Shown: positions 8,168 to 41,316 of the stretch, piece by piece | Layout: each line of letters opens with the position of its first letter | How positions within the stretch are numbered: the stretch's first letter is position 1 | Source of the DNA: Acidobacteriota bacterium | GTDB taxonomy: Bacteria; Acidobacteriota; Terriglobia; Terriglobales; Acidobacteriaceae | DNA length: 64,000 bases | Assembly (NCBI GenBank): GCA_003225175.1 | Contig: QIBA01000041.1 | Span: forward strand, 1 to 64,000 | Direction: 5' to 3' | Made by a program: the position numbers and the translations under genes | The notes under the pieces: generated by a model | Database searches by the model: none | The model's input: the letters and a program-made list of their open reading frames with translations, nothing else | Told to the model about the DNA's origin: nothing

Positions 8168-8188
8168 TCGCGAATAGGGAGTGAAGAG

Positions 8189-23049: not shown

Positions 23050-24489
23050 ATGCCCCCTTCTTCTTCTACAAGCGGTGTGCCACCGGTATCCGAACTGCTG
23101 GTCGCCGACACAGATCTGGAATCACTTGAGTTGTGCCGTGACACAGCTGCGGCTGCCCGCTCGGTGCTGCGTAACACCCACGACTCTGAAGCTACGCTCG
23201 AGGTATTGGAATCAGGGCTAGTCGACGTACTCCTCCTCAGCGAGCAGCTTCCGGGAGGAGCGGAATTGGAGCTGCTGAGGCACATTCATTATTGGTATCC
23301 CGAAACCCAAGTCATTATGATCTCGGACCATCCGAGTTATGCCTCTGCGGTGCAAGCCGCGAAATTGGGCGCATTTGACTATTTGCCTAAACCCTTGGAG
23401 GGAAAACTCCTGGAAGCTACAATCGTGCGCGCCGTGGAGCATTCTCGCACAGCCCGTGTAGCAGTCAGGGAACCCATAGATGCCGAAGCAGCGTACGGCA
23501 TCGTCGGCAAGACGGCAGTGATGTGGAAGCTCTACAAGGTCATCGAGAAAGTGTCCGCGAACATCCATCCTGTACTCATTCTGGGAGAAAGCGGCACGGG
23601 CAAGGAACTCGTCGCCCGGGCCATTCACTTTAGCGGCATACGTCATGAGCGGCCATTTATCCCAGTAGATTGTGGGGCGCTGGTTCCGACACTGTTAGAA
23701 AGCGAACTGTTTGGTCATGAGAAAGGAGCATTCACAGGAGCAGAGAGGGCCAAAGACGGACTGCTTCGAATCGCGGAGGGTGGAACGGTGTTCCTCGACG
23801 AGATTGGCGAACTTCCAGTGGAAGTTCAAGGAAAGCTCTTGCGGGCCCTACAAGAAAAGGAGATTCGTCCCGTCGGTAGTACAAAGCGCATTCGCATTGA
23901 TGTTCGCGTAATCGCAGCCACGAATCGCGAGCTCGAGGCTGCGATAAAAGAAGGCCGCTTTCGCAAAGATCTTTATTTCCGCCTCAACGTTGTCACCATC
24001 AAACTGCCTCCCTTACGAGACCGCATGGACGATATTGAAGAGCTAGTGAATGCCTTTCTTGATCGAATTGCCCAAAATACCGGCCAGCCCAGGAAGAAAA
24101 TCTCACGCGAGGCAGTGCGGATGTTGAAGACATATTCCTGGCCAGGGAACGTTCGCGAACTGGAGAACTTTATCGAGCGCGCGGTGGCGCTGGGCAGTGG
24201 AGGGACGCTGGAGCCTATCGACTTCCCCAGTCAAGTTAGCGGAAACATAACATTACCATCATTCTCGACCAGCGAGCCTATAAGACGTATTGGCCGCGTG
24301 CTTCCGATAGCAGAAGTTGAACGCCACGCAATCCTGAATGCAGTGGCTGAAGCTAAAGGCGATAAATTGCTGGCGGCTCGTATGCTAGGAATAGGTAAGA
24401 CCACTCTCTACAGGAAACTCCGTCAATATAAAAACCGTGCATCACAACTATTATTGCCGTCGAGCTCCCCTGCAACTACAGACTCTTAA
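23050..24489 (+). CDS. NtrC-type sigma-54 activator with degenerate receiver
   Basis: The 479-residue protein has three domains. Residues 13-125 are a response-regulator receiver: acidic pocket Asp20/Asp22 (ADTDLES), switch Ser in IMISDHPS and Lys114 in YLPKPLEG are present, but the phosphoacceptor Asp is Ser64 (LLLSEQLPGG). Residues 145-385 form the AAA+ sigma-54 domain, with Walker A GESGTGKE, the GAFTGA loop that contacts sigma-54, and FLDEIGELP. The end is a Fis-type helix-turn-helix (KLLAARMLGIGKTTLYRKLRQY). The ATG at 23050 follows agggtga by 7 bases; a TTG at 23044 is too close. It may regulate the sugar cluster that starts 198 bases downstream. Confidence 0.93.
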   Translation: MPPSSSTSGVPPVSELLVADTDLESLELCRDTAAAARSVLRNTHDSEATLEVLESGLVDVLLLSEQLPGGAELELLRHIHYWYPETQVIMISDHPSYASAVQAAKLGAFDYLPKPLEGKLLEATIVRAVEHSRTARVAVREPIDAEAAYGIVGKTAVMWKLYKVIEKVSANIHPVLILGESGTGKELVARAIHFSGIRHERPFIPVDCGALVPTLLESELFGHEKGAFTGAERAKDGLLRIAEGGTVFLDEIGELPVEVQGKLLRALQEKEIRPVGSTKRIRIDVRVIAATNRELEAAIKEGRFRKDLYFRLNVVTIKLPPLRDRMDDIEELVNAFLDRIAQNTGQPRKKISREAVRMLKTYSWPGNVRELENFIERAVALGSGGTLEPIDFPSQVSGNITLPSFSTSEPIRRIGRVLPIAEVERHAILNAVAEAKGDKLLAARMLGIGKTTLYRKLRQYKNRASQLLLPSSSPATTDS

Positions 24490-24686: not shown

Positions 24687-25523
24687 TTGCAGGCTGAAAC
24701 AAACAGCCAATTGACCATCGAGTCACTGAGTTCAAGCCCGTCTGCTCACGATCCCCAGGTCGAGGCGGCGAAGTCGTGCCCAGAGTTGACCCGACGAATC
24801 ATCGCCCTAGGCGATTGGTTTCATAACATCAATCTCAACGGAGTCTGGACAGCCCCAGATCACTTCCTCGGTGATTTTCCCAACGTAAAGTGGAAGGACA
24901 TTTCGAAAGCCGTCCCGGAGGACCTAAAAGGAGCGTCCGTTCTGGATATCGGGTGCAACGCCGGATTTTATTCAATTGCCCTCAAGAAACGCGGAGCAGG
25001 CAGGGTCCTCGGAGTGGACGTCGATGAGCGCTATCTGAATCAGGCTCGCTTTGCTGCCGAGACTCTCGGCTTGAAAATCGAATTTCAGAAATGCTCGGTC
25101 TACGATGTGGATCAAATCCCCGGACAGTTTGACTACGTTTTGTTCCTCGGCGTGTTTTACCACCTTCGATATCCGCTATTTGCTCTCGACAAGATCATTA
25201 AGAAAGTCGCCGGAAGGCTCTTCTTCCAAAGCATGATGCGCGGATCGATGGAACAGCGAACATGGAACGGGGATTACGAGTTTTGGGATGTGAAGCCCTT
25301 TCAGGATCCTGATTTCCCCTGCATGTACTTCATTGAGAACAGCTACGCGAGCGACTACACGAACTGGTGGATCCCAAATCGTGGTGCGGTCGAGGGAATC
25401 TTGCGTAGTTCGGGTCTGCAAATCCTTGACCAGCCAGAGTCGGAAACCTACGTCTGCGAACCACGTCGCGTGCAACGGGATGGTAAGTACCTACTTGATC
25501 TTGAACTTTCGGGAACTTTGTAA
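24687..25523 (+). CDS. SAM-dependent methyltransferase (TIGR04290-like)
   Basis: The 278-residue protein is a Rossmann-type methyltransferase. SAM motif I is SVLDIGCNAGFYSIALKKRGA, and motif II follows in VLGVDVDERYLNQAR. The sequence FDYVLFLGVFYHLRYPLFALD and the NSYASDYTNWWIPNRGAVEGILRSSG stretch match the family NCBIfam calls TIGR04290 as I recall it, found beside the same epimerases and radical SAM genes in other bacteria. The methyl acceptor is unknown; a sugar nucleotide or glycan is suggested by the cluster. The TTG start is supported by agggagaag 10-12 bases upstream. It is the first gene of the sugar operon. Confidence 0.85.
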   Translation: MQAETNSQLTIESLSSSPSAHDPQVEAAKSCPELTRRIIALGDWFHNINLNGVWTAPDHFLGDFPNVKWKDISKAVPEDLKGASVLDIGCNAGFYSIALKKRGAGRVLGVDVDERYLNQARFAAETLGLKIEFQKCSVYDVDQIPGQFDYVLFLGVFYHLRYPLFALDKIIKKVAGRLFFQSMMRGSMEQRTWNGDYEFWDVKPFQDPDFPCMYFIENSYASDYTNWWIPNRGAVEGILRSSGLQILDQPESETYVCEPRRVQRDGKYLLDLELSGTL

Positions 25524-25553
25524 GGTCTCAAAGAACGATAGAGGAATGCACGA

Positions 25554-26498
25554 ATGGTTGAAGCGGTGATGCTCTGGAACGAGCCCAACAACCTCTCCCA
25601 CTGGGATTTCAAAATCGATCCTGACTGGAAGAAGTTCGCGGAAATGGCAATTGCTGCAGGCAAGGCAATCCGCAGCGTGAATCCCGAGCTGCCCATCGTA
25701 CTGGGCGGGATCTCGCCTATCGATCCTAATTTCATTCAGCTGATGGGCTCACATGGCATTCTGAACGCCGTGGACGTCGTTGCAATCCACGGCTTTCCTC
25801 TGGACTGGAATCACTGGAATGTCAACGAGTGGCCCGCGAAGGTGGATGAAATCAGGGCGGTGACAAAGCTCCCGGTCTGGATTTCGGAAGTCGGGGCCTC
25901 ATCTTTCGGAGCCGAAGAGGTTCAGCTGTTCGGATTACAGAGGATGTCTGAGCTGCTGCTCGGGAATGTGGAACGCATTCACTGGTACAGTCTCTTTGAT
26001 CTACCGGCCTCCTGGACTGCAACTACACGCCATAAAGAAGCGGAAGGAAGCGCCTATTACCGCCACTACTACATGGGCTTATTGCGTGAGGATGAAACCC
26101 CTAAGATGGCAGCGGCGGAATTTCCTGAGGGACTTGGAATCTGTCAATGGTTTCACTACGAAGACCATCGACTGGATTCAGCCGTTGAGTGGCTGCATAG
26201 ACTCAAAGTTCGGTATCTCCGGACTGGGGTGAGTTGGGCCGACAGCCATCGTGAAAACGCTGAGCTGTGGTTTGACCGCCAGATGAAGGCTCTTGAGCCG
26301 TTTAATACGACGCTCACATTGTGCTTTACGCCAGAGCATCTAGGCATTGCGCCGCATTATACGAGTCCGCCGAAGGATCCAAACACGTTCGCGGAATTCG
26401 CGCAATGGGCGGTATCACGCTATGCACCTGCGCCTGTTCGAACGAACTCGGCTTACGCAATGCCGGAAGAAATGGCGGCGCCTTCGGTTCTAAGGTGA
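25554..26498 (+). CDS. Clan GH-A glycosidase-like protein, apparently permuted
   Basis: This 314-residue protein carries the two active-site motifs of a (beta/alpha)8 glycosidase: WNEPNN with the acid/base Glu10, and WISEVGASS with the nucleophile Glu112. Relatives are annotated as beta-xylosidase-like. Oddly, Glu10 is nearly at the N-terminus, though it should close strand 4, while residues 195-300 (VRYLRTGVSWADS, LTLCFTPEHLGIAPH, FAQWAVSRYAP) look like strands 1-3 of the same barrel. This suggests circular permutation. A stop codon just upstream rules out a longer N-terminus, and gagga precedes the ATG by 8 bases. No signal peptide is present, so it would act in the cytosol. The substrate is unknown. 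Confidence 0.75.
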   Translation: MVEAVMLWNEPNNLSHWDFKIDPDWKKFAEMAIAAGKAIRSVNPELPIVLGGISPIDPNFIQLMGSHGILNAVDVVAIHGFPLDWNHWNVNEWPAKVDEIRAVTKLPVWISEVGASSFGAEEVQLFGLQRMSELLLGNVERIHWYSLFDLPASWTATTRHKEAEGSAYYRHYYMGLLREDETPKMAAAEFPEGLGICQWFHYEDHRLDSAVEWLHRLKVRYLRTGVSWADSHRENAELWFDRQMKALEPFNTTLTLCFTPEHLGIAPHYTSPPKDPNTFAEFAQWAVSRYAPAPVRTNSAYAMPEEMAAPSVLR

Positions 26499-26527
26499 GA
26501 ACAACACTGGAAAGTGAATTGAGGCAG

Positions 26528-27649
26528 ATGATCACAAAGAAAATCTTGATCACAGGTGGAGCAGGTTTTGTTGGCTCACACTTGGCTGATGCGCTCATCG
26601 CTCTGAGGCACGACGTCCGCATTTTTGACAACTTGTCTCCTCAGGTTCATGGGTGTGGAGTGCCCTCGTATCTTTCCGGCAATGCGGAATTTGTCGCCGG
26701 GGATATGCGGGACGAGAACGCAGTTCGGAAAGCGATTGAAGGCGTGGACGTCATTTTTCACCTTGCCGCCTCCGTCGGAGTCGGCCAATCGATGTACCAG
26801 ATCTCCGACTACATGGGAGTGAATACCCAAGGTACAGCAGTGCTGCTACAGGCGCTGCTCGAACGAAAAGCGCGGGTCGAAAAACTAGTAGTGGCGTCGT
26901 CGATGTCAATCTATGGAGAAGGGCAGTATCTTTGCCCCAACTGCGGCGATTCTGTCCCCTCCCCGAGGAACATCGGGCAGCTTGCTAGAAAACAGTGGGA
27001 GGTAAAGTGCCCGGACTGTGGTGCTGAACTTACTCCTGTGCCCACGGCCGAAAGCAAACCTCTGCAATGCACCTCAGTTTATGCGCTCTCGAAGAAGGAC
27101 CAGGAGGAGATCTGCCTGCTTTATGGCCGGACCTATGGGCTGCCAGTTGTAGCTCTGCGCTACTTCAATATCTATGGGACGCGCCAGGCTCTCTCAAATC
27201 CCTACACCGGAGTTGCTGCGATCTTTGCTTCTCGTCTTCTGCACCTAAAAGCGCCATTAGTTTTCGAAGACGGGCGCCAGATGCGCGACTTTGTCAGCGT
27301 TCATGACATCGTGAACGCAAATCTGCTCGCTATGGAATCGGAAAAAGCTAACGGCCATGCCGTCAACATCGGGTCTGGGCGGCCCATTTCGATTCGTGAG
27401 GTCGCCTCAGTGCTCTCGCGAGCGATGGGCCTCCAGATATTCTGTGAAATCACGGGCAAGTACAGGGCTGGAGATATCCGCCATTGTTTTGGAAAGATTT
27501 CCAAAGCACGCGAACTTCTCGGGTACGAACCAAAAGTCCGATTTGAGGATGGAGTCGCTGAACTGGTTGATTGGCTGCGCGAGCAGACTCCCGAGGACAA
27601 GGCCGAGCGCATGGTTGCGGAATTACAAACCTTCGGTCTCACGGCGTAG
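26528..27649 (+). CDS. NAD-dependent sugar epimerase with zinc-ribbon insert
   Basis: A 373-residue short-chain epimerase/dehydratase of the extended type. The NAD motif is GGAGFVGS at the N-terminus and the catalytic pair is Tyr185-x3-Lys189 (YALSKK). Between them, residues 136-164 hold two CxxC knuckles (CPNC and CPDC), a zinc-ribbon insert typical of one branch of GalE/WcaG-like enzymes. It should act on a nucleotide-linked sugar for the cluster's glycan. The ATG at 26528 is chosen since upstream sequence in the same frame is not family-like. It follows the glycosidase gene by 29 bases. Confidence 0.9.
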   Translation: MITKKILITGGAGFVGSHLADALIALRHDVRIFDNLSPQVHGCGVPSYLSGNAEFVAGDMRDENAVRKAIEGVDVIFHLAASVGVGQSMYQISDYMGVNTQGTAVLLQALLERKARVEKLVVASSMSIYGEGQYLCPNCGDSVPSPRNIGQLARKQWEVKCPDCGAELTPVPTAESKPLQCTSVYALSKKDQEEICLLYGRTYGLPVVALRYFNIYGTRQALSNPYTGVAAIFASRLLHLKAPLVFEDGRQMRDFVSVHDIVNANLLAMESEKANGHAVNIGSGRPISIREVASVLSRAMGLQIFCEITGKYRAGDIRHCFGKISKARELLGYEPKVRFEDGVAELVDWLREQTPEDKAERMVAELQTFGLTA

Positions 27650-27675
27650 CAGGGCCAAGTGTTGAGGAACTAGAG

Positions 27676-28785
27676 ATGGATAGTAATCATTCAGAGAGGC
27701 GATCGGTACTGATCTTCGGCGGCGCAGGTTTTATTGGCGCGAATCTTGCGCAGTATGTGCTCCTCGAAACCGAGGCGAGCGTGCATGTCTTCGATAATCT
27801 CTCCCGTCGGGGCGTTCAGCACAACTTGGAGCTGCTGAGGAAAGCGGCTGGGCGATCTGGACGGCTTCGCGTCACCGTAGCCGATGTGCGCAACGCGTCA
27901 GCAGTCGAGCGCGCCTGCGGGGAGGCTACCGAGATATATCAATTTGCAGCGCAGGTCGCGGTCACAAGCTCGATCACCAACCCAAGGTGCGACTTCGAGA
28001 CCAATATTATAGGGACCTTTAACATCCTCGAAGGTGCTCGCCTTTCTGGCAATCAGCCGTTCATCCTATTCACTTCCACCAACAAGGTGTATGGGGAGAT
28101 GCTTGAGGAACAACTGGAGCTCAGAGGAGGACGATACGCCTATGCACATCGCACCTGTGTCTCTGAAGAGCAACCACTCGATTTCCATTCACCCTATGGC
28201 TGTTCGAAAGGCTCCGCAGATCAGTACGCTCGGGAGTACTCACGAATGTACGGATTACCCACTGTCGTATTTCGCATGTCTTGCATCGCCGGCGAGATGC
28301 AATACGGGAATGAAGATCAGGGCTGGGTAGCGCATTTCCTCTACACAGCATTGCGCGGCGGTCGACTCGTCATTTATGGAGACGGGTATCAAGTGAGAGA
28401 CGTACTTCACGTGAAGGACTTGGTACGCGCATTCGACGCGGTGCGCACGTCATTGCCTCAAACTGCTGGACAGATTTACAACGTGGGGGGCGGGCCAGAA
28501 AACACGATTTCCCTCATGGAGCTCATCGATGAGATCGAGGTTCTCACCGGCGAGCGGCTGGAGTACACAACGGGCCCCCGCAGGGCCGGAGATCAACAGA
28601 TTTACGTGAGCGATTACTCGAAGTTAGCTCGGCACACCGGCTGGAAGCCGCGTTCCTCGGTTCGCCAAACGTTGGCTGCCATCCACCAATTCTGGCAAGA
28701 GCATCGTGAATTCTTCGGCGATATTCCGGTCCGGCAGCGTGCCGAACCCGTTCTGTCACCCACGTTGCTTGAGAGGGCAGCCTGA
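27676..28785 (+). CDS. NAD-dependent sugar epimerase, CDP-paratose 2-epimerase-like
   Basis: The 369-residue protein has the extended-SDR layout: LIFGGAGFIGANLAQYVL with the NAD-binding GGAGFIG, FAAQVAVTSSITNPRCDFETN, the Ser/Thr site FTSTNKVYGE, and the catalytic YGCSKG pattern (Tyr and Lys). FTSTNKVYG and the DQY that follows the Lys resemble CDP-paratose 2-epimerase (TyvE) relatives. The exact sugar is not known. gagga lies eight bases ahead of the ATG. The stop overlaps the next start as TGATG. Confidence 0.88.
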   Translation: MDSNHSERRSVLIFGGAGFIGANLAQYVLLETEASVHVFDNLSRRGVQHNLELLRKAAGRSGRLRVTVADVRNASAVERACGEATEIYQFAAQVAVTSSITNPRCDFETNIIGTFNILEGARLSGNQPFILFTSTNKVYGEMLEEQLELRGGRYAYAHRTCVSEEQPLDFHSPYGCSKGSADQYAREYSRMYGLPTVVFRMSCIAGEMQYGNEDQGWVAHFLYTALRGGRLVIYGDGYQVRDVLHVKDLVRAFDAVRTSLPQTAGQIYNVGGGPENTISLMELIDEIEVLTGERLEYTTGPRRAGDQQIYVSDYSKLARHTGWKPRSSVRQTLAAIHQFWQEHREFFGDIPVRQRAEPVLSPTLLERAA

Positions 28786-30074
28786 TGCGGTACGCTTTCA
28801 TAAACCCAAATTGGAACTTCACAGGTTCAACTTACTTCGGCTGTCAGGAGCCACACTACCCCCTGGAGTTGCTCTTCGCCTTCGACCAGGTGCTTCAGGC
28901 AGGAAGTGAAGCTTTGCTTGTGGACGCTCAGGTCGAGAACCTCACTACCACTGAGGCTTCGCCGCGAATTCGTGATTTTCGACCTGACTTCCTGGTAATC
29001 CCGACTGCTCCGTCGTACCTTTTCTGGCGTTGTCCGCCGCCTGAGCTGCGCGTGCCGGGAGAATGGTTTTCAGCTCTGCGCAGCAGTGGGACGCACGTAG
29101 CAATCGGTCCTCATCCGTCGGCAACACCTGGTGCTACGTTGCGCAAGACGAAATGTGATCTCGCGTTGCGCGGGGAACCTGATCAGACCTTGCCGCAGCT
29201 CGCCTACAAGCCTTGGCAGGAGATCGTCGGTTGCTGCTGGCGCGATGACAAAGGCGAACACATCAGCTCCGCATTGGGAGTCACAGATATGAAGGCGCTC
29301 AGTGCGCTCGACTTCCACAACTATCCAGTCGAACTCCACGGGCATTGTCACCATGTCTTTAGTGGGCAAGCCCGAGGTGCTGAACTCGAGTTCGCACGCG
29401 GCTGTCCATGGTCATGCACCTTCTGCAATAAGACATTATTCCGCAACAAATTCCGTGAGCGCTCGGTGGACGCAGTACTCATCGAAATCGATCACCTAAT
29501 AGCCCGCGGAGTCGGCTACATCTACTTTATCGATGAAATATTTGGCGTCAGTAAGAATGTCTTGCGATTGCTCGAAGGCATCGCCGAACGACCGGTGAAG
29601 ATTGGCTTCCAAACGCGAATCGATCTCTGGACCGAGGAGACACTCGATCTACTTGGTCGCGCCCACTGTATTTCGATGGAATGTGGTGTGGAATCAATTA
29701 CTGAACAGGGCAGGGAAGAGCTGAACAAGAATTGCCGGATCGATACCTGCCGCATTAGTGAGCTATTGATCTATGCGCGCCAGCGAATTCCCTGGGTACA
29801 GGCGAATCTGATCCTTACGGAGCAGGACGACAAGGTCCAGATTCGCAAATGGCAGGACGAGTTGAAGTCACACGGCGTGTGGGTCAGCGAGCCTGTTCCG
29901 ATGTTTCCGTTTCCCGGCAGTCCTCTCTACGTGCAAACGTTCGGTGAGTCGCCCGACGACAGTGCCTGGGAGCGGGCACATCACTTCTACATGTCCCAAT
30001 TTCAGGACAAGGGTTTCAGCGATATCCAGGAGCAGCAGCCGGCCGCGATCGAGGATCTTGAATGCACGTATTGA
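28785..30074 (+). CDS. B12-binding-type radical SAM protein (TIGR04295-like)
   Basis: The 429-residue protein has an N-terminal cobalamin-binding-like Rossmann part (residues 1-160, without a DxHxxG motif), then a radical SAM core with the 4Fe-4S cysteines C207, C211 and C214 in RGCPWSCTFCNK. IYFIDEIFGV, VKIGFQTRIDLWTEETL and CISMECGVESITEQGREEL are class-B-like radical SAM signatures. Such enzymes often methylate unactivated carbon or rearrange carbon skeletons. The substrate is unknown but must fit a sugar pathway. From memory this is the family NCBIfam calls TIGR04295. The start overlaps the preceding stop (TGATG); the end overlaps the next gene by 13 bases. Confidence 0.88.
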   Translation: MRYAFINPNWNFTGSTYFGCQEPHYPLELLFAFDQVLQAGSEALLVDAQVENLTTTEASPRIRDFRPDFLVIPTAPSYLFWRCPPPELRVPGEWFSALRSSGTHVAIGPHPSATPGATLRKTKCDLALRGEPDQTLPQLAYKPWQEIVGCCWRDDKGEHISSALGVTDMKALSALDFHNYPVELHGHCHHVFSGQARGAELEFARGCPWSCTFCNKTLFRNKFRERSVDAVLIEIDHLIARGVGYIYFIDEIFGVSKNVLRLLEGIAERPVKIGFQTRIDLWTEETLDLLGRAHCISMECGVESITEQGREELNKNCRIDTCRISELLIYARQRIPWVQANLILTEQDDKVQIRKWQDELKSHGVWVSEPVPMFPFPGSPLYVQTFGESPDDSAWERAHHFYMSQFQDKGFSDIQEQQPAAIEDLECTY

Positions 30075-31168
30075 TGACTGCGGATACCATCGGCGGCGTC
30101 TGGACCTTTGCCCGCGAACTGGTCACGCAGCTCTCTCGCCAGGGGATCCGCATTACTCTGGTGAGCTTTGGGGAGATTCCATCGGCACAGCAATCCAAGT
30201 GGCTCGATGACCTTCCATTAGTGTCGTACTACCCAACCGCGTTCCGTCTGGAGTGGATGCAGGACGCGCAATCCGACTTAGAGCAATCTGCCGAACTTCT
30301 TCGATCTCTCATCGCGGAAACGAAGCCCGATCTACTTCATTTCAATCAGTTCTATTATGGGAGCCTTGACTGCGGGCAACCCAAAATCGTGGTCGCCCAT
30401 AGCGACGTCGTCAGCTGGTGGGTTGCCGTACATGGTGTCGAGCCACCGGCAAACGATTGGATTCGGCAGTACCGCGAGAACGTAGTTCGCGGTTTCGCTC
30501 GAGCCGATCTGGTAATCGCTCCTACTCACTGGATGTTGGACCAGGCGTGCCATCACTATGGCGAGCCTGGGAAGAAAGCCGTCGTGTACAACGGTCGCGA
30601 CCCACGACTCTTCGTCGCCAATGCGGCGAAGCAACATTACGCAGTTTCGATCGGAAGGCTCTGGGATGCGGGTAAACAGGCGAACTTATTGCTTCGTGAT
30701 GACCTTCCGTTGCAGACAATCCTGGTGGGATCCGAACAGAGTCCCCAAGGAGCCATTGCCTCGGCTCAATCGATGGGTCGCCTCGCCAATCTTCGCGTGA
30801 TTGGACCTCAATCCGAAGAGCAACTGCGCCAATTGCTTGCGGGAGCGTCCATCTACGTCGCCAGCTCGCGCTACGAACCCTTCGGTCTAGCGCCGTTGGA
30901 AGCTGCACTGTCAGGCTGCCCGATCATTGCGAATGACATAGAAACATTCCGCGAGGTCTGGAGCGAAGACGCGATTTACTTCGAGAAAAACAATTCCGGC
31001 AGCCTGGTACTCACAATTCAGCAACTTGCATCTAACCCCCTGCGGCGTTCGGAATATGGAGATCGTGCCCTGCAGCGAGCACGCAGGCAGTTCAGTTCCG
31101 AGAAGATGGCCGAAAGCTATCTAGCCCATTACCGTTCCCTAGTCCATTCGGAGGTTGCGGCCGCTTGA
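30062..31168 (+). CDS. Glycosyltransferase family 4
   Basis: This 368-residue GT-B enzyme begins with MHVLMTADTIGGVWTFARELVTQLSRQG, the Gly-rich acceptor-side loop of GT4. It ends with the donor-side motif YEPFGLAPLEAALSGCPIIANDIETFREVW, in which the Glu of the E-x7-E pair binds the sugar nucleotide. It would add a sugar to a lipid- or glycan-linked acceptor at the cytosolic face. It overlaps the radical SAM gene by 13 bases and the next gene by four, so it sits inside the operon. Confidence 0.9.
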   Translation: MHVLMTADTIGGVWTFARELVTQLSRQGIRITLVSFGEIPSAQQSKWLDDLPLVSYYPTAFRLEWMQDAQSDLEQSAELLRSLIAETKPDLLHFNQFYYGSLDCGQPKIVVAHSDVVSWWVAVHGVEPPANDWIRQYRENVVRGFARADLVIAPTHWMLDQACHHYGEPGKKAVVYNGRDPRLFVANAAKQHYAVSIGRLWDAGKQANLLLRDDLPLQTILVGSEQSPQGAIASAQSMGRLANLRVIGPQSEEQLRQLLAGASIYVASSRYEPFGLAPLEAALSGCPIIANDIETFREVWSEDAIYFEKNNSGSLVLTIQQLASNPLRRSEYGDRALQRARRQFSSEKMAESYLAHYRSLVHSEVAAA

Positions 31169-32280
31169 ACGGCAAGCTGCGAATTCGGGTCTTCGCACAC
31201 TCTCTCGTATCTGACTGGAACCATGGCAACGCGCACTTCCTGCGCGGATTGTCGCGCGCATTGGTTCGTCTTGGCCATCAGGTTCGCTCGTACGAGGAGC
31301 TGGGCGCATGGTCGCTTGCCAATCTCATTCGCCAGGAAGGTGAGACCGCGATTGAAGCCGTCGACGACTTTCGGCGGATCTACTCCGAGCTCGATATCCA
31401 CTTCTACAAGAACGACGCGACCTTGGAAGGCTTCCTGGAGGAAGAGCTCAAGGAAGTAGACCTGGTTCTCATCCACGAATGGAATGACCCTTCGGTCGCC
31501 AACAAGGTGCTCGCATTCAAGGAAAAGTACGGATTCAAGGCCCTGTTCCACGACACACATCACCGCGCTTACACGAGGCCGAGGGAAATCCTGAAATTTC
31601 ACCTGCACAAAGTCGACGGGGTACTAGCGTTCGGCGAGGCCATCCGTCGAATCTATGCGGACGGATTCGGTGTGCCCCGGGTTTGGACTTTTCACGAAGC
31701 TGCCGATGCCGAGGTTTTTGCTCCCCGACGTGAAAAACAGGAGACCGATGTCCTCTGGATCGGCAACTGGGGTGATGATGAGCGTACGCGTGAGTTGATG
31801 GAGTTTCTGCTCCAGCCAGCCAGTGCGTTGCAGGGTCGCCGAATCGTTGCATACGGAGTTCGCTATCCAGAAAACGCGCTCGAGCAATTGCGCCAGTCCG
31901 GAATTGAATACCGCGGCTATCTGCCCAACTTGAAGGCTCCACAGGTGTACAGCAGGAGCGCTCTTACGCTGCATGTTCCACGGCGTCAGTATGCCAATGG
32001 CTTAAGTGGGATCCCAACGATCCGCGTCTTTGAGGCGCTCGCTTGCGGAACGCCACTAGTGTGCTCGCCCTGGACGGATACCGAAAATATGTTCCGACCT
32101 GGGCAAGACTACCTGTGCGTGCCTGATGGCCCAAGCATGCGCGCGGCGATAGAAGCCCTTCTCCGCGACGATGCCGCACGCGCGCAGCTCGGAGTGAGTG
32201 GACGAGAGACGATCGAAAAGCACCACACCTGTGGTCATCGCGCAGAACAGTTGCTGGGCATCTACGAGGAGTGCGCATAG
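31165..32280 (+). CDS. CgeB-like glycosyltransferase
   Basis: The 371-residue protein has the layout of the CgeB/Glyco_trans_1_2 group. The N-terminal half (RIRVFAHSLVSDWNHGNAHFLRGLSRALVRLGHQV) binds the acceptor. The C-terminal half (TDVLWIGNWGDDER, ALTLHVPRRQYANGLSGIPTIRVFEALACGTPLVCSPW) carries the donor motif. Two related genes follow it. The TTG start overlaps the preceding TGA (TTGA), so translation is coupled, and there is no ATG close by. It is probably one of the chain-building steps of the cluster's glycan. Confidence 0.85.
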   Translation: MNGKLRIRVFAHSLVSDWNHGNAHFLRGLSRALVRLGHQVRSYEELGAWSLANLIRQEGETAIEAVDDFRRIYSELDIHFYKNDATLEGFLEEELKEVDLVLIHEWNDPSVANKVLAFKEKYGFKALFHDTHHRAYTRPREILKFHLHKVDGVLAFGEAIRRIYADGFGVPRVWTFHEAADAEVFAPRREKQETDVLWIGNWGDDERTRELMEFLLQPASALQGRRIVAYGVRYPENALEQLRQSGIEYRGYLPNLKAPQVYSRSALTLHVPRRQYANGLSGIPTIRVFEALACGTPLVCSPWTDTENMFRPGQDYLCVPDGPSMRAAIEALLRDDAARAQLGVSGRETIEKHHTCGHRAEQLLGIYEECA

Positions 32281-33365
32281 TGAAGATATTCGTCTTCGGT
32301 TCCAGCATTACCTCCTCATACTGGAACGGAGCCGCAACCTACTATCGGGGCATTTACAGTAACCTCGCCCGATTGGGTCATCAGATCACTTTCGCAGAAC
32401 CCGATGCCTATGGCCGACAGCAGCGGCGCGATCCGGGCGACTACAGCTATGTCGAGAGTCTGGTGTATTCGAGCCCATCAGACCTTTCGAAAATCTTCGA
32501 GCAGGCTGCCCGAGCGGACCTCGTTATCAAGCACAGCGGCGTAGGAGTTGACGACCCCGAACTGGAATTTGCAGTAGCACGTGAAATTGAAAGCGCTGCC
32601 ATTCGCGTCTTTTGGGATGTTGATGCTCCCGCAACCCTCTCCCGTATCGAGCAGGACCGGAGTGACCCATTTCGGTTACTCATTCCTCAGTACGACCTGA
32701 TTCTGACCTATGGGGGCGGACCACCAGTTGTAAATCATTACCGCCGCCTGGGCGCACGCGATTGTTGTGCAATCTACAACGCCCTGGATCCAACCACTCA
32801 CCATCCGGCGCCAAAGGATTCATCGCTGAAGTGCGACCTCGTATTTGTCGCCAACCGCCTTCCCGATAGGGAACGAAGGGTAGAAGATTTCTTTATCGCG
32901 GCAGCGCACCTTGCGCCTGAACTAAGTTTCATCTTGGGAGGCGAGGGCTGGGAAGGGAAGCGTTTGCCAGAAAATATCCGGTGGATTGGACATGTCGGCA
33001 CCTCAGATCACAACCGCGTAAATTGCTCGGCTCGCATGGTATTGAATCTCAATCGAGACTCCATGGCGAGCGTTGGTTTCTCTCCGCCAACCCGTGTCTT
33101 TGAAGCTGCTGGAGAGGGCGCATGTGTTGTGACTGATGCCTGGACCGGAATCGAAACTTTCTTTGAACCGGGCGAAGAGATCCTATTGGTCTCAGATGCG
33201 AACGAAATCGTGGACGTTCTGAGAAATACGAGTGATGAGCGTGCTGCGCAAATCGGAACCGCCATGCGGCGGCGCGCTCTACGGGACCACACCTACGCTC
33301 AGCGCGCGGAACAGTTATCTGAACTCCTGGCGCGCGTCGAAAACCAGCAGAGCGCAGTAGCGTAG
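32280..33365 (+). CDS. CgeB-like glycosyltransferase
   Basis: Second of three related glycosyltransferases, 361 residues. The GTG at 32280 (reading MKIFVFGSSITSSYWNGAATYYRGI) overlaps the preceding TAG by one base and gives the same opening as the next gene (MKIVVFGLSITSAWGNGHATTFRAL), which supports it over a GTG at 32271. The donor half includes CDLVFVANRLPDRE, MVLNLNRDSMASVGFSPPTRVFEAAGEGACVVTDAWTGIETFFEPG. The acceptor and the sugar donor are unknown. Confidence 0.85.
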   Translation: MKIFVFGSSITSSYWNGAATYYRGIYSNLARLGHQITFAEPDAYGRQQRRDPGDYSYVESLVYSSPSDLSKIFEQAARADLVIKHSGVGVDDPELEFAVAREIESAAIRVFWDVDAPATLSRIEQDRSDPFRLLIPQYDLILTYGGGPPVVNHYRRLGARDCCAIYNALDPTTHHPAPKDSSLKCDLVFVANRLPDRERRVEDFFIAAAHLAPELSFILGGEGWEGKRLPENIRWIGHVGTSDHNRVNCSARMVLNLNRDSMASVGFSPPTRVFEAAGEGACVVTDAWTGIETFFEPGEEILLVSDANEIVDVLRNTSDERAAQIGTAMRRRALRDHTYAQRAEQLSELLARVENQQSAVA

Positions 33366-33371
33366 CCGCTT

Positions 33372-34496
33372 ATGAAGATCGTTGTCTTCGGTTTATCGAT
33401 TACTTCTGCCTGGGGCAACGGCCACGCCACCACCTTCCGTGCACTCCTTAAAGCTTTACATGAACGCAAGCACGACATCGTATTTTTCGAAAAGGAAACG
33501 GAGTGGTACGCCCATAATCGCGATCTCCCCGAGCCGCCCTACTGCCGGCTGATCCTTTATGACAACTGGTCAGACGTGTCGAGCAAGGCGCGCAAAGAGC
33601 TGGCCGATGCCGATGTGGGAATGGTCGGTTCATACTTTCCGGATGGAGTAGTCGCCATCGACGAGTTGCTCGACAGCCGAGCTGGCGCGAAAACCTTTTA
33701 CGACATCGATACGCCGATCACGATCGCCAACCTCGGGCAAAAGGGAAGTACAGACTATGTAACCGCAGCGCAGCTGTCTGGATTCGATATTTATTTCAGC
33801 TTCACCGGCGGGCCGATGCTGCGCGAAATCGAGGAGAAGTTCGGGGCAAAATCGGCGTTTCCCCTCTACTGCTCTTTCGATCCATGTGAATATCATCGCT
33901 TTCCCGCAAACAAGCGTTTCGCATGTGACCTGAGTTATATGGGTACGTATGCCCCTGATCGGCAGGCGAAGCTCGAAGAGCTACTTGTACGCGCCGCCAC
34001 CGACTCTCCGGAGTCGAGCTTCACAGTCGCTGGATCGCAATATCCAAAGCGTATCCGCTGGCCAAAAAATGTCCGGCGGATTACACACCTAAATCCAAAA
34101 TGGCACGCTCGCTTTTATTCATCTTCGCGGCTTACACTGAATCTTACTCGGCGCGAGATGGTTATCGCTGGCTACTCGCCTTCAGTGCGTCTTTTTGAGG
34201 CCGCAGCTTGCGGCGCAGTCATCGTTTCAGACAACTGGCCAGGGCTCGATTCCTTCTTTATTCCGGGACGTGAGATCCTGCTTGCGGCCGATGCTCAGGA
34301 CGTCGAGCGATATTTGGCGTTGCCGGATTCGGAGCTGCGCGCCATCGGCGATGCTGCCCAAGCGAGAGCTCTGGCTAAGCACACCAGCGAGATACGGGCT
34401 ATTGAATTTGAAGAGGCCATTGGCGCGCCAATTCAGAAGCGCGAAATCGCTACTCCTGGTTCGCAGCAGGAAGAAGAAGTTGTGCAGGTGAGTTAA
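33372..34496 (+). CDS. CgeB-like glycosyltransferase
   Basis: Third related glycosyltransferase, 374 residues, starting six bases after the previous stop. The CgeB pattern is clear: CDLSYMGTYAPDRQAKLEELL, then RLTLNLTRREMVIAGYSPSVRLFEAAACGAVIVSDNWPGLDSFF. The two halves are arranged as in its neighbours, so the trio probably arose by duplication. The final 25 residues are a charged tail. A 113-base gap follows, the largest inside the operon, so an internal promoter could lie there. Confidence 0.85.
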   Translation: MKIVVFGLSITSAWGNGHATTFRALLKALHERKHDIVFFEKETEWYAHNRDLPEPPYCRLILYDNWSDVSSKARKELADADVGMVGSYFPDGVVAIDELLDSRAGAKTFYDIDTPITIANLGQKGSTDYVTAAQLSGFDIYFSFTGGPMLREIEEKFGAKSAFPLYCSFDPCEYHRFPANKRFACDLSYMGTYAPDRQAKLEELLVRAATDSPESSFTVAGSQYPKRIRWPKNVRRITHLNPKWHARFYSSSRLTLNLTRREMVIAGYSPSVRLFEAAACGAVIVSDNWPGLDSFFIPGREILLAADAQDVERYLALPDSELRAIGDAAQARALAKHTSEIRAIEFEEAIGAPIQKREIATPGSQQEEEVVQVS

Positions 34497-34609
34497 ATCA
34501 TCGGCGCCGAGTTGCGCGCCAACGCTACCATCCTTTTCCGCATCTAAACAGAAGCTCCATCCGGTGAAGCAGCACGTAGTCTGCCCCACAGTCCAACCCA
34601 AGGAGTCCA

Positions 34610-35689
34610 ATGAGAGTTGCTGTAGTCGCTCCTCCGTTCATTCCAGTTCCCCCAAAACGATATGGCGGAACGGAGCTCTTCGTCGGTTATCTCGTGCAGA
34701 GTCTAAAAGCGCACGGAATCGATGTGGTTTTATACGCAACAGGGGATTCAACTGCCAAGGTGGAGGTCCGCTTTCTCTATCCGAAATCAGAATGGCCTCT
34801 CGAAGGCGAGATCTTCTCAAACTTGAAAGACGTGAATCACACCTTCTGGGCAGTCGAAGATGCGATGCACGATTGCGACATCCTTCACCTGAACAACGCG
34901 CCGGGGTTGGCGGCTACCCGTTTTGTGAACGTTCCAGTCGTGTACACGGTGCATCATCCCCGGCAGAATCTTCTGAGTGACTTCTATGCCTCGTATCCGG
35001 ACATCAACTACGTCATGATCAGCGATTCTCAGAAGTCGTTTGAGGCGATGCCGAAGATGACGACGATCCATCATGGAATTTCGATGGACGATTATCAGTT
35101 TCAGAAGCAGAAGCAGCCATACCTGAGCTTCATTGGCCGATTTGCTCCGGTCAAGGGCCCCCACATTGCGATCGAAGTTGCCAAAAAACTCGGCATTCCG
35201 CTCAGGATGGCCGGCGAGGTACAGCCACAGTTCAAGGATTACTTCGAGAATGAAGTCAAGCCGCACATAGACGGCAAATTTGTCGAGTTCATTGGCGAGG
35301 CCGATCAGCAGATCAAGAATGAACTCCTCGGGAATTCTATGGCGTTGCTGTTTCCGATCCAATGGGACGAACCCTTTGGATTAGTGATGATCGAAGCCAT
35401 GGCTTGCGGAACGCCCGTAATCGCGCTGCGTGGCGGATCGGTAGCTGAAGTAGTGTGCGATGGAATATCAGGCTACGTCTGTGAGAACGCGGATCAGATG
35501 GTGGAACGCATTCGCAACCTGTCCATCCCGAGCGCTTCCGTCCGGCATTACGCGGAAATGAATTTTTCTACTGAGAAGATGGCCAAAGACTACGCGCGCT
35601 TGTACGAGTCATTAATTACGAACGCTGATTTGGTACTGCCCGAGACAGACACGATATCCTTCACGATCGAGCCCGGAACGGCGGCATGA
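34610..35689 (+). CDS. Glycosyltransferase family 4
   Basis: The 359-residue protein is a standard GT4: AVVAPPFIPVPPKRYGGTELFVGYLVQSLKAHGIDV at the N-terminus; YLSFIGRFAPVKGPHIAIEVAKKLGIPLRMAGE in the linker; and PIQWDEPFGLVMIEAMACGTPVIALRGGSVAEVV in the donor site, with the two conserved Glu residues. Close relatives sit beside amylo-alpha-1,6-glucosidase genes, as here. The ATG follows aaggag by 5 bases. It overlaps the next gene by four bases (ATGA). Confidence 0.92.
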   Translation: MRVAVVAPPFIPVPPKRYGGTELFVGYLVQSLKAHGIDVVLYATGDSTAKVEVRFLYPKSEWPLEGEIFSNLKDVNHTFWAVEDAMHDCDILHLNNAPGLAATRFVNVPVVYTVHHPRQNLLSDFYASYPDINYVMISDSQKSFEAMPKMTTIHHGISMDDYQFQKQKQPYLSFIGRFAPVKGPHIAIEVAKKLGIPLRMAGEVQPQFKDYFENEVKPHIDGKFVEFIGEADQQIKNELLGNSMALLFPIQWDEPFGLVMIEAMACGTPVIALRGGSVAEVVCDGISGYVCENADQMVERIRNLSIPSASVRHYAEMNFSTEKMAKDYARLYESLITNADLVLPETDTISFTIEPGTAA

Positions 35690-37899
35690 GCACGGCCACC
35701 AGAATTCCCCTCGACGAACTCGAGGAAGTAGCTTCTCCGTATCCCGAACCACAGCTCGGCTTTCTCGTTCATGAGCCGAGAAAAGTCAATAACCTTACTC
35801 TGATTAATGGAAAGACCTTTCTCTCCACCACGGTTGCCGGAGATATCACGCCGCCGGGAGCTCCTGACGTTGGTTTCTTTCACGACGATACGCGCTTCCT
35901 GAGCAGGCTCGAGCTGAAGATAGGAGGACAAAGAACCGTTGTCCTCTCCTCCAGCACAGAGAAGACCTTTGCCTCAAAAATAGAACTTACTACCACCACT
36001 CTTGCACAGATCAATTCGTTCGATTTGCCGGAAAACACAGTTTACATTCGCCGCCAGCAGCTTCTCGTTTCCGATGTGTTTTATGACTCAATTACTTTCT
36101 CCAATTTCAATCAGTCGGAAGCGGAACTGCTGGTTGAGATAGCAGTGGAGGCGGATTTTGTCGATGTTTTCCAGGTGCGTGGATGTGCGCGCAATAAGTC
36201 CGGACACTACTACAAGCCTAAGCTCCAGGGAGATTCATTGGTCTTCTTCTACGTCGGTCTGGACGGGATAGCCCGGGAGACGACGATCCGCTTTCAAACG
36301 CCACCAGATGAGGTAGAGAGTCCTTTCCTTCGGTGGCGGCTCAAAGTTCCGGCAACCGGATTCCGTGAACTGTTGAACACGATTACTTGCCGGGTCGGCG
36401 ATAAGCCTGCTCGCTCGAAGGAAAAGAGCGTTGTGCTGGGCTTCCGGGAGAGGCGGGAAACATATCGCCGCTGGGAAGAGGCATCCACCAGATTCGAAAG
36501 CAGCAACGACATCTTCGATCATGCAATGCAAACCTGCACTGCCGATTTCCATGCATTACAGATTCCTGACGGCGATCAGCACATTCTCGCTGCCGGTATT
36601 CCATGGTTTGCGACGATGTTCGGTCGCGACTCTCTGATCGCCGCGTATCAGTCCTTGCTGCTCAATCCGCGGCTCGCCTGCGAGACGCTGCGTGTGCTGG
36701 CCAGATATCAGGGAAAGCGATCGAATGACTGGCTCGATGAAGAGCCGGGAAAAATTCCCCATGAATATAGGACCGGCGAAATGACCCGCGCCGGGGAAAT
36801 GCCATTCAGTCCTTATTATGGGTCCGTTGATGCCACACCGTTATTTCTCATATTGCTCAGCGAGACTTTCAACTGGACAGGAGACGCTGAGCTAGTGCAG
36901 GAACTCCTGCCCGCAGCTCGTTCCGCTCTCGATTGGATCGAGAACTACGGCGACCTCGACGGCGATGGACTAGTCGAATACAAGCGGCGATCGCCGAAAG
37001 GACTTATTAACCAGGGCTGGAAAGATTCGTGGGACGCAAACATGCATCGCGATGGCAGCATGGCCAACCCGCCAATCGCTCTCGTGGAGGTGCAGGGGTA
37101 CTGCCATGAGGCCCAGTACCGCATGGCGCAACTGCTGCGGCTCGTTGGCGATACGATGCGGGCCGACAAGCTGCGAAAGAGCTCCACGGAATTCGCTAAG
37201 AGAATTGAAAAGGCGTTTTGGCTGCCAGAAGAGAACTTCTACGCGATGGGACTAGACAGTGCCAAGAGACCCATGGAGGTGATCTCTTCGAATGCGGGGC
37301 ATCTCCTCTTCACTCGAACGGTCGCCAAAGATCGTGCGCGGCTGGTGGTGGAGCGCCTGATGAGAGACGACATGCAGTCAGGCTGGGGATGGCGCACGCT
37401 GGCCCGCTCAGAACGTGTGTTCAATCCGCTCAGCTATCACCGCGGCTCAGTCTGGCCTCACGATAACTCGCTTATCGGTCACGGAATGGCTTTGTATGGT
37501 TTTAGAGATGAAGTTAAGCAGATCTTCACGGCGCTCTATCAGGCTGCACTAAATTTTCGTGATTACCGATTGCCCGAACTCTTCTGTGGAGTGCAGCGGC
37601 ATGAAAACGATGAGCCCGTGCATTATCCGGTCTCCTGTTCACCGCAGGCATGGGCGTCCGGAGCCTTCTTCCTCCTGCTCACATCGCTGCTCGGCATACG
37701 CCCATCGGCGCATCGCAAGGAATTAAATATCGTGAATCCGATGCTGCCCGACTGGCTCGACTACCTGCGAATCAGCAATCTGAACATCGGCAAGAGCCGC
37801 GTGTCCCTGGACTTCAGCCGTCACGGCGAACGAACGTTCTGCAATGTTGTGGACGTGAGTGGAGAGAAATTGTTGATTAATGTTGCTTTCAGGAAGTAG
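35686..37899 (+). CDS. Amylo-alpha-1,6-glucosidase (glycogen debranching type)
   Basis: The 737-residue protein has the bacterial debranching layout. Residues 55-250 form the N-terminal beta-sandwich (LINGKTFLSTTVAGDITPPG, FFHDDTRFLSRLEL). Residues 280-700 are an (alpha/alpha)6 barrel with AAGIPWFATMFGRDSLIAAYQSLL, GWKDSWDANMHRDGS and SYHRGSVWPHDNSLIGHGMALYG; Asp and Glu residues in these motifs are the likely catalytic pair. The family hydrolyses alpha-1,6 branches in glycogen, but in this cluster it may trim or recycle a dedicated glucan. No signal peptide is seen. It is the last gene of the sugar operon. Confidence 0.92.
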   Translation: MSTATRIPLDELEEVASPYPEPQLGFLVHEPRKVNNLTLINGKTFLSTTVAGDITPPGAPDVGFFHDDTRFLSRLELKIGGQRTVVLSSSTEKTFASKIELTTTTLAQINSFDLPENTVYIRRQQLLVSDVFYDSITFSNFNQSEAELLVEIAVEADFVDVFQVRGCARNKSGHYYKPKLQGDSLVFFYVGLDGIARETTIRFQTPPDEVESPFLRWRLKVPATGFRELLNTITCRVGDKPARSKEKSVVLGFRERRETYRRWEEASTRFESSNDIFDHAMQTCTADFHALQIPDGDQHILAAGIPWFATMFGRDSLIAAYQSLLLNPRLACETLRVLARYQGKRSNDWLDEEPGKIPHEYRTGEMTRAGEMPFSPYYGSVDATPLFLILLSETFNWTGDAELVQELLPAARSALDWIENYGDLDGDGLVEYKRRSPKGLINQGWKDSWDANMHRDGSMANPPIALVEVQGYCHEAQYRMAQLLRLVGDTMRADKLRKSSTEFAKRIEKAFWLPEENFYAMGLDSAKRPMEVISSNAGHLLFTRTVAKDRARLVVERLMRDDMQSGWGWRTLARSERVFNPLSYHRGSVWPHDNSLIGHGMALYGFRDEVKQIFTALYQAALNFRDYRLPELFCGVQRHENDEPVHYPVSCSPQAWASGAFFLLLTSLLGIRPSAHRKELNIVNPMLPDWLDYLRISNLNIGKSRVSLDFSRHGERTFCNVVDVSGEKLLINVAFRK

Positions 37900-38333: not shown

Positions 38334-39587
38334 TCAGTGAATCGTCCGTGTCTTCCGTGACATATAGTCCATCAGCAGATACTGGCCCAAGGTATGCGGA
38401 GTGGTGAAGTACGCCTTTCCCCTGCACATCTCCGTCACCTTCTGCACGAACTGAATCAGTCCGTAATCCGAAGCAAGCATAAAAGTATTGATCATCACCC
38501 CAGCGCGTTTGCACCGAGAGACCTCTTCCAGAGTCCGGCTCACAACCAGCGGATCCAGCCCAAAGGCGTTTTTATAAATCCGGCCATCTTCGAGCGTGAG
38601 CGCCGATGGCTTGCCATCAGTAATCATGATGATCTGCTTCATGTCCTTACGCTGGCGGTCGAGAATGCGCTGTGCCATGCGCAAGCCCTCGCGAGTGTTG
38701 GTGTAATACGGACCAACTTTCACACGCGCGAGCTGTGAAAGCGGCAGCTCTTCGGCCGAATCGTGAAACAGGACGAGAGAAAGGGAATCGCCGGGATACT
38801 GCGTACGAATCAGTTGCGAGAGCGCCATCGCAACTTTCTTCGCCGGAGTGAAGCGGTCTTCGCCGTAGAGGATCATTGAATGCGAGCAGTCAAGCATCAG
38901 CACAGTCGCGCACGAAGACTGATATTCGCACTGATGCACCTGAAGGTCCGAATATTCGAGTTCAAGTGGAACTTTAAGTCCATCGCGCTGAATTGCGTTT
39001 GATAATGTGGCGGTAATGTCGAGGTTGAGAGTGTCGCCGAACTCGTATTGGCGTGATGCGCCGCTCGACTCGATACCGGTAGCCATGTCGCGCGTGTCGT
39101 GACGTCCGAAGTTGGATTTGCCCAGAGAGCCGAGAAGATCCCGCAGAGCGCGATATCCCAGAAAGTCGAGGCCCTTGTCGGTGACCTCAAACTTGACCTG
39201 GCCTTGCTGCATTTCCCCGGTTTGTCCAGGGAGGTTCGATTGCTGGGAGCGATCGAAGGGCTGATCGACCGTAATGTAGTTCTCCTGCTCCATACGGTCG
39301 ATTAACTTCTCGATAAGTTCATCAAGCTGACCATCGGCACGCATTTGCTCGAGCTGCTCGCGCATGTTCTCGTCAAGCATGTCGCCGGATTCAAGCGCTT
39401 GCTGAATCGCCTGCCGGAGTTGCTCGAGTGTCTGCTCGCCTTCATTGAATTCGTAGAAGTACCAGGAATCCTGAAACCCGCTCTGCAGCAGATAGTTGGA
39501 GAGCGCATTGAGCAGATCTTCCATGCTCATCTCCCCAGCAGGATCGGCAACGTACTTGGAGTACTTGATGAATTTCATACAATCCAT
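38334..39587 (-). CDS. VWA-domain protein, partner of MoxR-like ATPase
   Basis: The 417-residue protein has a helical N-terminal half (residues 1-200) and a von Willebrand factor A domain. The metal-ion site is Asp233, Ser235 and Ser237 in LMLDCSHSM, followed by the later MITDGKPSA motif. MoxR-type ATPases and VWA proteins typically work together as a chaperone pair that inserts metal or activates other proteins. The MoxR-like gene lies just upstream on the same strand, separated by 182 bases that hold an inverted repeat. The ATG at 39587 or the one three codons later may be the start. Confidence 0.85.
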
Positions 39588-39619
39588 GGCGCCGTACCGG
39601 CGCGGTATCCGCTGAGTTC

Positions 39620-39768
39620 AAGGACCGTCGTGCGCCCTCGCGCGGATTTTCGGTGATTTCACCAGAAAGCCCAAATAGAGCTAAGCGTTCCTATCTCTAG
39701 TACGCGTCAGTACGCATCCTGCTAGCACTCCGAGACCAACACCCGCGCGAGGGCGCGCGGCGGTCCTT
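39620..39768. repeat. 150-base element with 26-base inverted ends
   Basis: The arms 39620-39645 and 39743-39768 are inverted copies that agree at 24 of 26 positions, and the inner 14 bases (gcgccctcgcgcgg) are identical. The spacer of 97 bases has no coding potential. One end abuts the stop codon of the MoxR-like gene. The shape is that of a small non-autonomous insertion or a REP pair. Confidence 0.75.
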
Positions 39769-39769
39769 T

Positions 39770-41254: not shown

Positions 41255-41316
41255 TACAGATGAGATCACCTCAAGAAAATTATACGCGGGCGCGAAAAAC
41301 GCGTCGGCGCGCGGTA

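Follow-up and report, generated by a model that had tools for sequence, protein, structure and literature searches.

A conserved radical SAM and glycosyltransferase cassette with a circularly permuted GH-A-like barrel on an acidobacterial contig

Gene content and layout of the operon

The window analysed here comprises the 64,000 nucleotides at positions 1 to 64,000 (forward strand) of contig QIBA01000041.1, from the Acidobacteriota bacterium assembly GCA_003225175.1. Between positions 24687 and 37899, its plus strand carries eleven co-directional genes for a putative sugar pathway, including a radical S-adenosylmethionine (SAM) enzyme, two short-chain dehydrogenases/reductases (SDR-A and SDR-B), several glycosyltransferases (GTs) and a relative of the glycoside hydrolases of clan A (GH-A). 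An earlier note, made from the sequence alone, had described a ten-gene sugar operon at this site; the operon is real and every gene function described is present there on the plus strand, but the functions listed in that note add up to eleven genes rather than ten.

The first gene (24687..25523), whose TTG start codon is uncertain, encodes a SAM-dependent methyltransferase that belongs to TIGR04290 (347.5 bits over the whole protein, against a curated cut-off of 300). It is followed by the gene for a circularly permuted GH-A-like (beta/alpha)8 barrel (25554..26498), with glutamates E10 in a WNEPN motif and E112 in a WISE motif, recognized from blastp matches in swapped order, an AlphaFold2 model and its similarity to PslG. 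SDR-A (26528..27649) is UDP-glucose 4-epimerase-like according to the Pfam SDR profile and sequence matches, and a zinc-ribbon-like CPNC...CPDC insert lies between its two conserved halves. SDR-B (27676..28785) matches CDP-tyvelose 2-epimerases over nearly its whole chain (9rl0, 1.9e-71; 1orr, 3.8e-66) and is thus CDP-tyvelose 2-epimerase-like, a putative C2 epimerase. For both SDRs, we chose the ATG start within the listed open reading frame (ORF). The radical SAM enzyme (28785..30074; Pfam Radical_SAM), with an N-terminal B12-type domain, scored 618.1 bits against a curated cut-off of 400 and belongs to TIGR04295 (B12_rSAM_oligo). Both TIGR models are of the type 'hypoth_equivalog', NCBI families without assigned function, which indicates that these families have already been recognized but not explained.

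Downstream lie a GT4-type glycosyltransferase (30062..31168; PF13439 and PF00534) and three glycosyltransferases matching PF13524 (Glyco_trans_1_2), a family that we take to be the CgeB type: CgeB1 (31165..32280), CgeB2 (32271..33365) and CgeB3 (33372..34496). The last two genes, clade-specific accessories that accompany the cassette in few loci, encode a second GT4-type glycosyltransferase (GT4b, 34610..35689; Pfam) and a GDE_N_bis/MGH1-like glycosidase of the amylo-1,6-glucosidase type (hereafter GDE, 35686..37899; PF14742, PF22422 and PF06202, GDE_C). Neighbouring genes overlap or are at most 32 nt apart, with the sole exception of 113 nt before GT4b (the SDR starts used for these gaps were both displaced by 3 nt). 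As the earlier note had stated, no polymerase, flippase or exporter family was matched by the eleven proteins in TIGR and Pfam profile searches, and an Rfam scan of the window detected tRNA only, with no cobalamin riboswitch.

The gene set is presumably the one termed the 'rhizo-twelve system' at NCBI, a name that no search confirmed. No paper on 'rhizo-twelve', TIGR04290 or TIGR04295 was found in the open-access literature, nor any biochemical description of the system, in line with the earlier note, which knew of none.

Conservation across phyla and the place of the debranching gene

Relatives of the radical SAM protein numbered at least 385 in a scan of genome contigs, and the best 80 were kept (loci L012-L091), picked by similarity and not as a random sample; their titles name Acidobacteria, cyanobacteria, Deltaproteobacteria, Minicystis and Alphaproteobacteria. 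Six plasmid loci and 39 loci from searches among Alphaproteobacteria (40 retrieved, minus one duplicate) brought the dataset to 125 loci; L111 (same plasmid as L006) and L001-L005 (matches within the window's own genome) had been dropped before any count. Considering only the genes of the reference set, the order radical SAM-GT4-CgeB1-CgeB2-CgeB3 was kept in 94 of the 108 loci that continue for 5 kb or more downstream. The 14 exceptions were 12 split cassettes, L070 with CgeB3 on the other strand and the rearranged L115. Upstream, an SDR was the next cassette gene before the radical SAM gene in 115 of the 116 loci with at least 2.5 kb available. The comparison of gene order that the earlier note had proposed as a check therefore reveals an arrangement conserved far beyond the source strain.

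The cassette is patchily distributed across the genomes surveyed. Among the limited number of first-look candidates scored per genome, the family turned up in 1 of the 149 genomes from the window's phylum, namely the source genome, likewise only in the centre genome among 244 from the phylum of L067 and, with the centre genome included, in 17 of 397 of the order of Mangrovicella (L083). For Skermanella (L091), the figures were 14 of 385 genomes in its class and 35 of 82 in its order, the centre genome again included. Nine plasmid records carry the family at E 1e-40, and no relative was found in viral contigs. Bradyrhizobium sp. 195 has two complete copies (L010 and L011) on two different plasmids typed as conjugative. 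The contigs of L044 and L046 are labelled Rhodanobacteraceae and Verrucomicrobia, while their cassettes fall among Acidobacteriaceae on the tree, through either a binning error or transfer.

In 13 loci, the radical SAM gene lies apart from the glycosyltransferases, with SDR-B still adjoining it in 12; in L061, only the methyltransferase stands beside it. The GH-A, GT4 and three CgeB genes were found elsewhere in 12 of the 13 genomes, as matching regions around the GH-A gene, and the 13th region is a 5.4-kb contig with nothing recognized. The tendency of SDR-B to stay with the radical SAM gene suggests that the two enzymes act consecutively on one sugar. Apparently 'minimal' cassettes of these two genes turned out to be split cassettes and were rejected as a separate type, and the radical SAM fusions suggested by long ORFs in L056, L058, L061 and L062 were rejected as shadow extensions of the frame. 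A gene of the UDP-glucose dehydrogenase type adjoins the separated pair in L023, L028, L029 and L037, as assigned by Pfam for the L023 copy and by clustering for the others.

The earlier note had proposed either a stored or capped glucan or a rare modified sugar as the product. If an alpha-glucan, stored or capped, were made or processed here, the debranching enzyme would have a central role; in the window, its gene overlaps GT4b, and the GT4b-GDE pair follows the glycosyltransferase cluster in ten loci (the window, L016, L019, L030, L034, L163 and L165-L168). However, leaving the window aside, a same-strand GDE gene follows the cassette in only 4 (L016, L019, L030 and L034) of the 53 unsplit loci that extend 8 kb or more downstream, with three more having it on the other strand, and GT4b-GDE occurs in 5 of the 13 split-cassette regions (L163 and L165-L168, all same-strand). 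The remaining 59 loci, including all 39 from the alphaproteobacterial searches, have less than the 8 kb downstream needed for this judgement. Moreover, both window genes stand behind the operon's one large gap. The debranching enzyme is therefore a clade-specific accessory, its conservation falling short of that in a glycogen metabolism cluster, and we consider the glucan explanation highly improbable, while the rare modified sugar is kept as the best reading of the product.

The permuted barrel and its canonical counterpart

The GH-A-like protein of the window starts at WNEPN, a motif that we take to mark strand 4 in clan GH-A, and ends with what appear to be strands 1-3. In Tistrella and on a Geminicoccaceae plasmid, the SDR-B protein has an extra N-terminal domain of about 330 residues that is a GH-A homologue in canonical order. 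By blastp, window residues 2-193 matched residues 117-306 of the Geminicoccaceae domain (35%, 1.5e-33), and residues 191-291 matched 12-114 (28%, 8.9e-12), i.e. in swapped order; the Tistrella and Bradyrhizobium sequences behaved in the same way. The AlphaFold2 model (pLDDT 88.3, pTM 0.86, with low confidence at residues 159-167) predicts eight strands in the order 4-8 followed by 1-3. A profile match to PslG was likewise swapped, with window residues 2-152 on chain positions 131-300 and, weakly, 199-294 on 25-130. Structural comparisons of the permuted barrel with Foldseek and VIA-align returned PslG, an assortment of TIM barrels and partial matches to GH10 and beta-glucuronidase.

Among the GH-A ORFs scored, 65 were permuted (window included), 16 were canonical and 8 were partial or unclear, one of which (L068) looks permuted. 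When the permuted rows were rotated and aligned jointly with the canonical ones, FastTree separated the 16 canonical rows from the rest by a long branch (support 1.0), which, on a tree without outgroup, fits a single permutation event. The acid/base glutamate is present in 63 of the 65 permuted rows (L015 is cut by the contig end and L057 has Ser) and the glutamate at the nucleophile position in all 65. According to the alignment and the predicted model, the protein thus has the (beta/alpha)8 barrel and the two catalytic-type glutamates of clan GH-A, without the canonical strand order that places the acid/base after strand 4 and the nucleophile after strand 7, and it is filed as a permuted relative of the clan and not as a standard member. 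No earlier report of this permuted barrel was found in the open-access literature.

PslG, the closest solved sequence relative of the GH-A enzyme, presumably belongs to an exopolysaccharide system, and CgeB-type glycosyltransferases are known from spore-coat work. Both points favour a cassette that makes a cell-surface glycan or glycolipid, such as an outer-membrane head group or a cyst- or spore-coat-like sugar, with the export genes located elsewhere. On the other hand, no polymerase, flippase or exporter is present among the annotated cassette genes of the six plasmid loci, for which the gene table is incomplete, or of the window. In addition, WNEPN begins within the first ten residues of the window GH-A protein, so that, judged from position alone, there is no room for a leader. 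A surface glycan is thus a rather unlikely product, and a cytoplasmic one is preferred here.

The two catalytic glutamates are both kept in 11 of the 16 canonical rows and both lost in L064, L066, L074, L075 and L086; degenerate canonical domains were also read by eye in L079, L083, L091, L119, L120 and L122. None of the 10 genomes with an intact canonical domain (G664, G437, G566, G499, G419, G927, G861, G1265, G155 and G563) contains a permuted copy, whereas each of the 11 genomes or loci whose canonical domain is degenerate does. The permuted copy lies within the locus in L064, L066, L074, L079 and L086 and elsewhere in the genome in G1266, G152, G151, G865, G752 and G864. Its motifs are intact in G152, G865, G864, G752 and G151 (L136, L138, L139, L141 and L145), and in G1266 (the genome of L075) it was matched at 9.2e-147. 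The genomes were searched with a permuted query; for L064, L066, L074 and L086, the count covers the locus alone. Left out of it were L007 (plasmid only) and the Kastovskya locus L067, which at 7000-9700 shows a loss or disruption of both the SDR-A end and the first half of the canonical GH-A domain, through an assembly fault or a deletion. The exclusion between an intact canonical domain and a permuted copy gives a Fisher p of 2.8e-6, kinship not corrected for.

On a FastTree phylogeny of 124 radical SAM proteins, in which 37 of the 121 inner branches are weak, the intact-canonical state requires 7 changes against the rest. Among the 22 canonical-bearing rows alone, it requires 3 changes, compared with 7.6 under shuffled labels (0 of 500 shuffles as low). 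Tree neighbours with support 93 are L083, degenerate with a permuted copy, and L007, intact on a plasmid. Given that an intact canonical domain occurs without a permuted copy and a degenerate one with it, one form seems to replace the other, and the pattern can be read as each pathway having a single functional GH-A enzyme, with at least a few exchanges between the two forms. It offers a natural experiment in protein evolution, in which a permuted catalytic barrel seems to supplant its canonical relative in the same pathway, the older domain, on this replacement reading, apparently being left as a dead fusion partner.

Stress-promoter motif and candidate role of the product

Each cassette unit was scanned for GGAAC-N15..18-GTT between -350 and +60 relative to its start. 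In Alphaproteobacteria, the motif occurs in 32 of 75 units and in 31 of 48 loci. For comparison, the mean under dinucleotide-block shuffling was 1.41 units, control motifs gave 3 and 2 when the spacing was wrong or 0 and 1 when the sequence was different, and random windows of the same loci predict 2.4. Among 18 hits picked from those 56-84 nt upstream (of the 32 in total), the spacer is 17 in 11 and 18 in 7, within the N17-20 of the EcfG motif GGAAC-N17-20-GTT given in the part of PMC6599016 considered here. The separate unit of myo-inositol-3-phosphate synthase (MIPS), HisP, methyltransferase and GH-A genes also carries the motif in the three alphaproteobacterial genomes looked at (L177, L179 and L180), and none was seen in L176, the sole non-alphaproteobacterial separate region scanned. 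One-mismatch sites, such as those at about -70 in L094 and L103, were not counted, being too frequent by chance (0.44 per region on both strands). The cassette thus seems to be under general stress response control in many soil bacteria. No earlier report of the cassette or of its link to the EcfG regulon was found in the open-access literature, and the main texts of PMC6599016 and PMC8092242 contain neither 'CgeB' nor 'inositol'; the parts of them considered here do not describe the cassette.

On the Tistrella plasmid (L006, 9866-28862), a topoisomerase IB gene lies between cassette genes, with Ku and LigD downstream, which gives the region the look of a stress-resistance island. The gene upstream of this cassette encodes an EcfG-like sigma factor matching PhyR_sigma2. 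In Sphingomonas, Ku and topoisomerase IB are part of the EcfG regulon, according to the portion of PMC6599016 considered.

Regarding the chemistry, the radical SAM CxxxCxxC motif (C207, C211 and C214) is invariant in 55 rows. The AlphaFold2 model (pLDDT 91.0) combines this core with an N-terminal domain of the B12-type fold, as in cobalamin radical SAM methylases, with VIA Z scores of about 27 tied among TsrM, AprD4, OxsB and MgmA. Relatives by sequence include AprD4, OxsB and TokK; the closest solved one is AprD4 (5.1e-12, radical SAM core only), a 1,2-diol dehydratase acting on paromamine. As the B12-type fold is common to methylases and AprD4, it does not decide the reaction. AprD4, OxsB and TokK act in antibiotic pathways, which, along with the patchy distribution and plasmid location, would suit a specialized-metabolite cluster for an antibiotic-like glycoside with a rare C-methylated or deoxygenated sugar. 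Nevertheless, the conserved set lacks an aglycone, resistance or transport gene, the core order is the same across phyla, and the alphaproteobacterial copies have a general stress promoter instead of pathway-specific control, all of which makes such a cluster improbable. The Bradyrhizobium copies add genes for MIPS (1gr0, 8.7e-143) and UDP-xylose synthase (UXS; 4gll, 6.2e-112), found in 14 and 27 of the 125 loci, respectively. Bradyrhizose was considered and dropped because of this low MIPS count, and a UDP-apiose link via Geminicoccus was rejected, since apiose synthase is in no conserved operon in the part of PMC5607165 considered.

Taken together, there is about an even chance that the core genes constitute a conserved pathway in the cytoplasm, which makes a single small hetero-oligosaccharide or glycoside with modifications for use in stress survival. 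SDR-A and SDR-B would epimerize nucleoside diphosphate sugars (C4 and C2 types), and the radical SAM enzyme may modify the same sugar as SDR-B by C-methylation, dehydration or epimerization. GT4 and three to four CgeB-type enzymes would build a short chain, which the methyltransferase might cap and the GH-A enzyme trim or transglycosylate. In some Alphaproteobacteria, myo-inositol would be the likely base of the chain and UDP-xylose one of the donors, and the general stress sigma factor EcfG would turn the cassette on. In B. diazoefficiens, trehalose serves as an intracellular stress protectant under EcfG control, according to the part of PMC8092242 considered; by analogy, switching by EcfG suggests that the product is probably a stress protectant too. 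The earlier note's coherent sugar pathway with a radical SAM step thus stands, its glucan reading having been abandoned. What is new is the GH-A permutation, its SDR-fused canonical homologue and the stress-promoter link, all of which that note had missed. More tentatively, and with somewhat less than even confidence, the cassette may represent a new class of stress glycosides: a sugar altered by a radical SAM enzyme within a small hetero-oligosaccharide, cytoplasmic and under general stress control, with a GH-A enzyme in two interchangeable forms, an SDR-fused canonical and a free permuted barrel, one repeatedly replacing the other.

Several observations weigh against these proposals. In 8 loci, SDR-A abuts the radical SAM gene with no SDR-B between them. 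The intact-canonical state is clustered on the tree and the genomes are related, so the exclusion counts are not independent; L067 fits neither state, as the first half of its canonical domain is missing or disrupted and no permuted copy is present. The exact promoter motif is absent from 17 of the 48 alphaproteobacterial loci, including seven with a divergent MIPS unit (L008, L009, L112, L113, L125, L129 and L131), and for some hits the distance upstream is large, reaching 337 nt. Loci outside Alphaproteobacteria are at chance (2 of 124, shuffle mean 2.88), the motif was not seen in the 201 nt upstream of the window copy, and EcfG is described as an alphaproteobacterial regulator in the part of PMC6599016 considered; therefore, the stress role is not automatically transferable to the acidobacterial window. 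Cobalamin use is a prediction, binding of the cofactor and methyl transfer being candidate functions suggested by the fold. Considering that MIPS is present in just 14 loci, the inositol link is not general, and the window genome has a PF01658 protein only distantly like the cassette MIPS (1.1e-7). Finally, gene conservation, the pairing of SDR-B with the radical SAM gene in most loci, the GH-A permutation, its exclusion of an intact canonical domain and the promoter motifs are computational results, while the chemistry, product and physiological role are inferred, as is the same role for the acidobacterial copy. Even so, the analysis assigns an uncharacterized cross-phylum sugar cassette to a probable regulon and proposes for it a role that can be tested in culturable bacteria.

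Outside the operon, the gene directly upstream (23044-24489) encodes a response regulator with a sigma54-interaction domain and has homologues in L012, L014, L016 and L030. Downstream (38334-41335, minus strand) lies a pair encoding a VWA-domain protein and a chelatase-type ATPase; L016 has homologues of both close to its cassette, and L030 has one of the VWA protein.

Among known systems, the gene set of TIGR04295 and TIGR04290 is a neighbourhood common to the window and to Bradyrhizobium and Azospirillum plasmids. The window operon differs from it in being without MIPS, HisP, UXS and the phosphopentomutase-type gene, in having the GTx-NTase pair (a fourth CgeB-type glycosyltransferase with a nucleotidyltransferase) on another contig and in the addition of GT4b-GDE. 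SDR-B resembles the CDP-tyvelose 2-epimerases 1orr and 9rl0 over nearly its full length, but in other genomes it is fused to a GH-A barrel. AprD4, TsrM, OxsB and MgmA share the predicted two-domain fold of the window radical SAM protein, at only 15-20% identity. GGAAC-N17/18-GTT upstream of most alphaproteobacterial copies is shared with the EcfG (PhyR-NepR-EcfG) regulons. PslG, which we take to be a GH39 member of clan GH-A, resembles the window GH-A protein (profile match 6.6e-7; 25% identity over 182 aligned residues, Z 11.9) but has the usual strand order. Natural circular permutation of TIM-barrel glycosidases is also found in the GH70 glucansucrases and MalS of clan GH-H, as described in the part of PMC10223318 considered; the window case belongs to another clan and differs in that the canonical and permuted forms exclude each other within one cassette.

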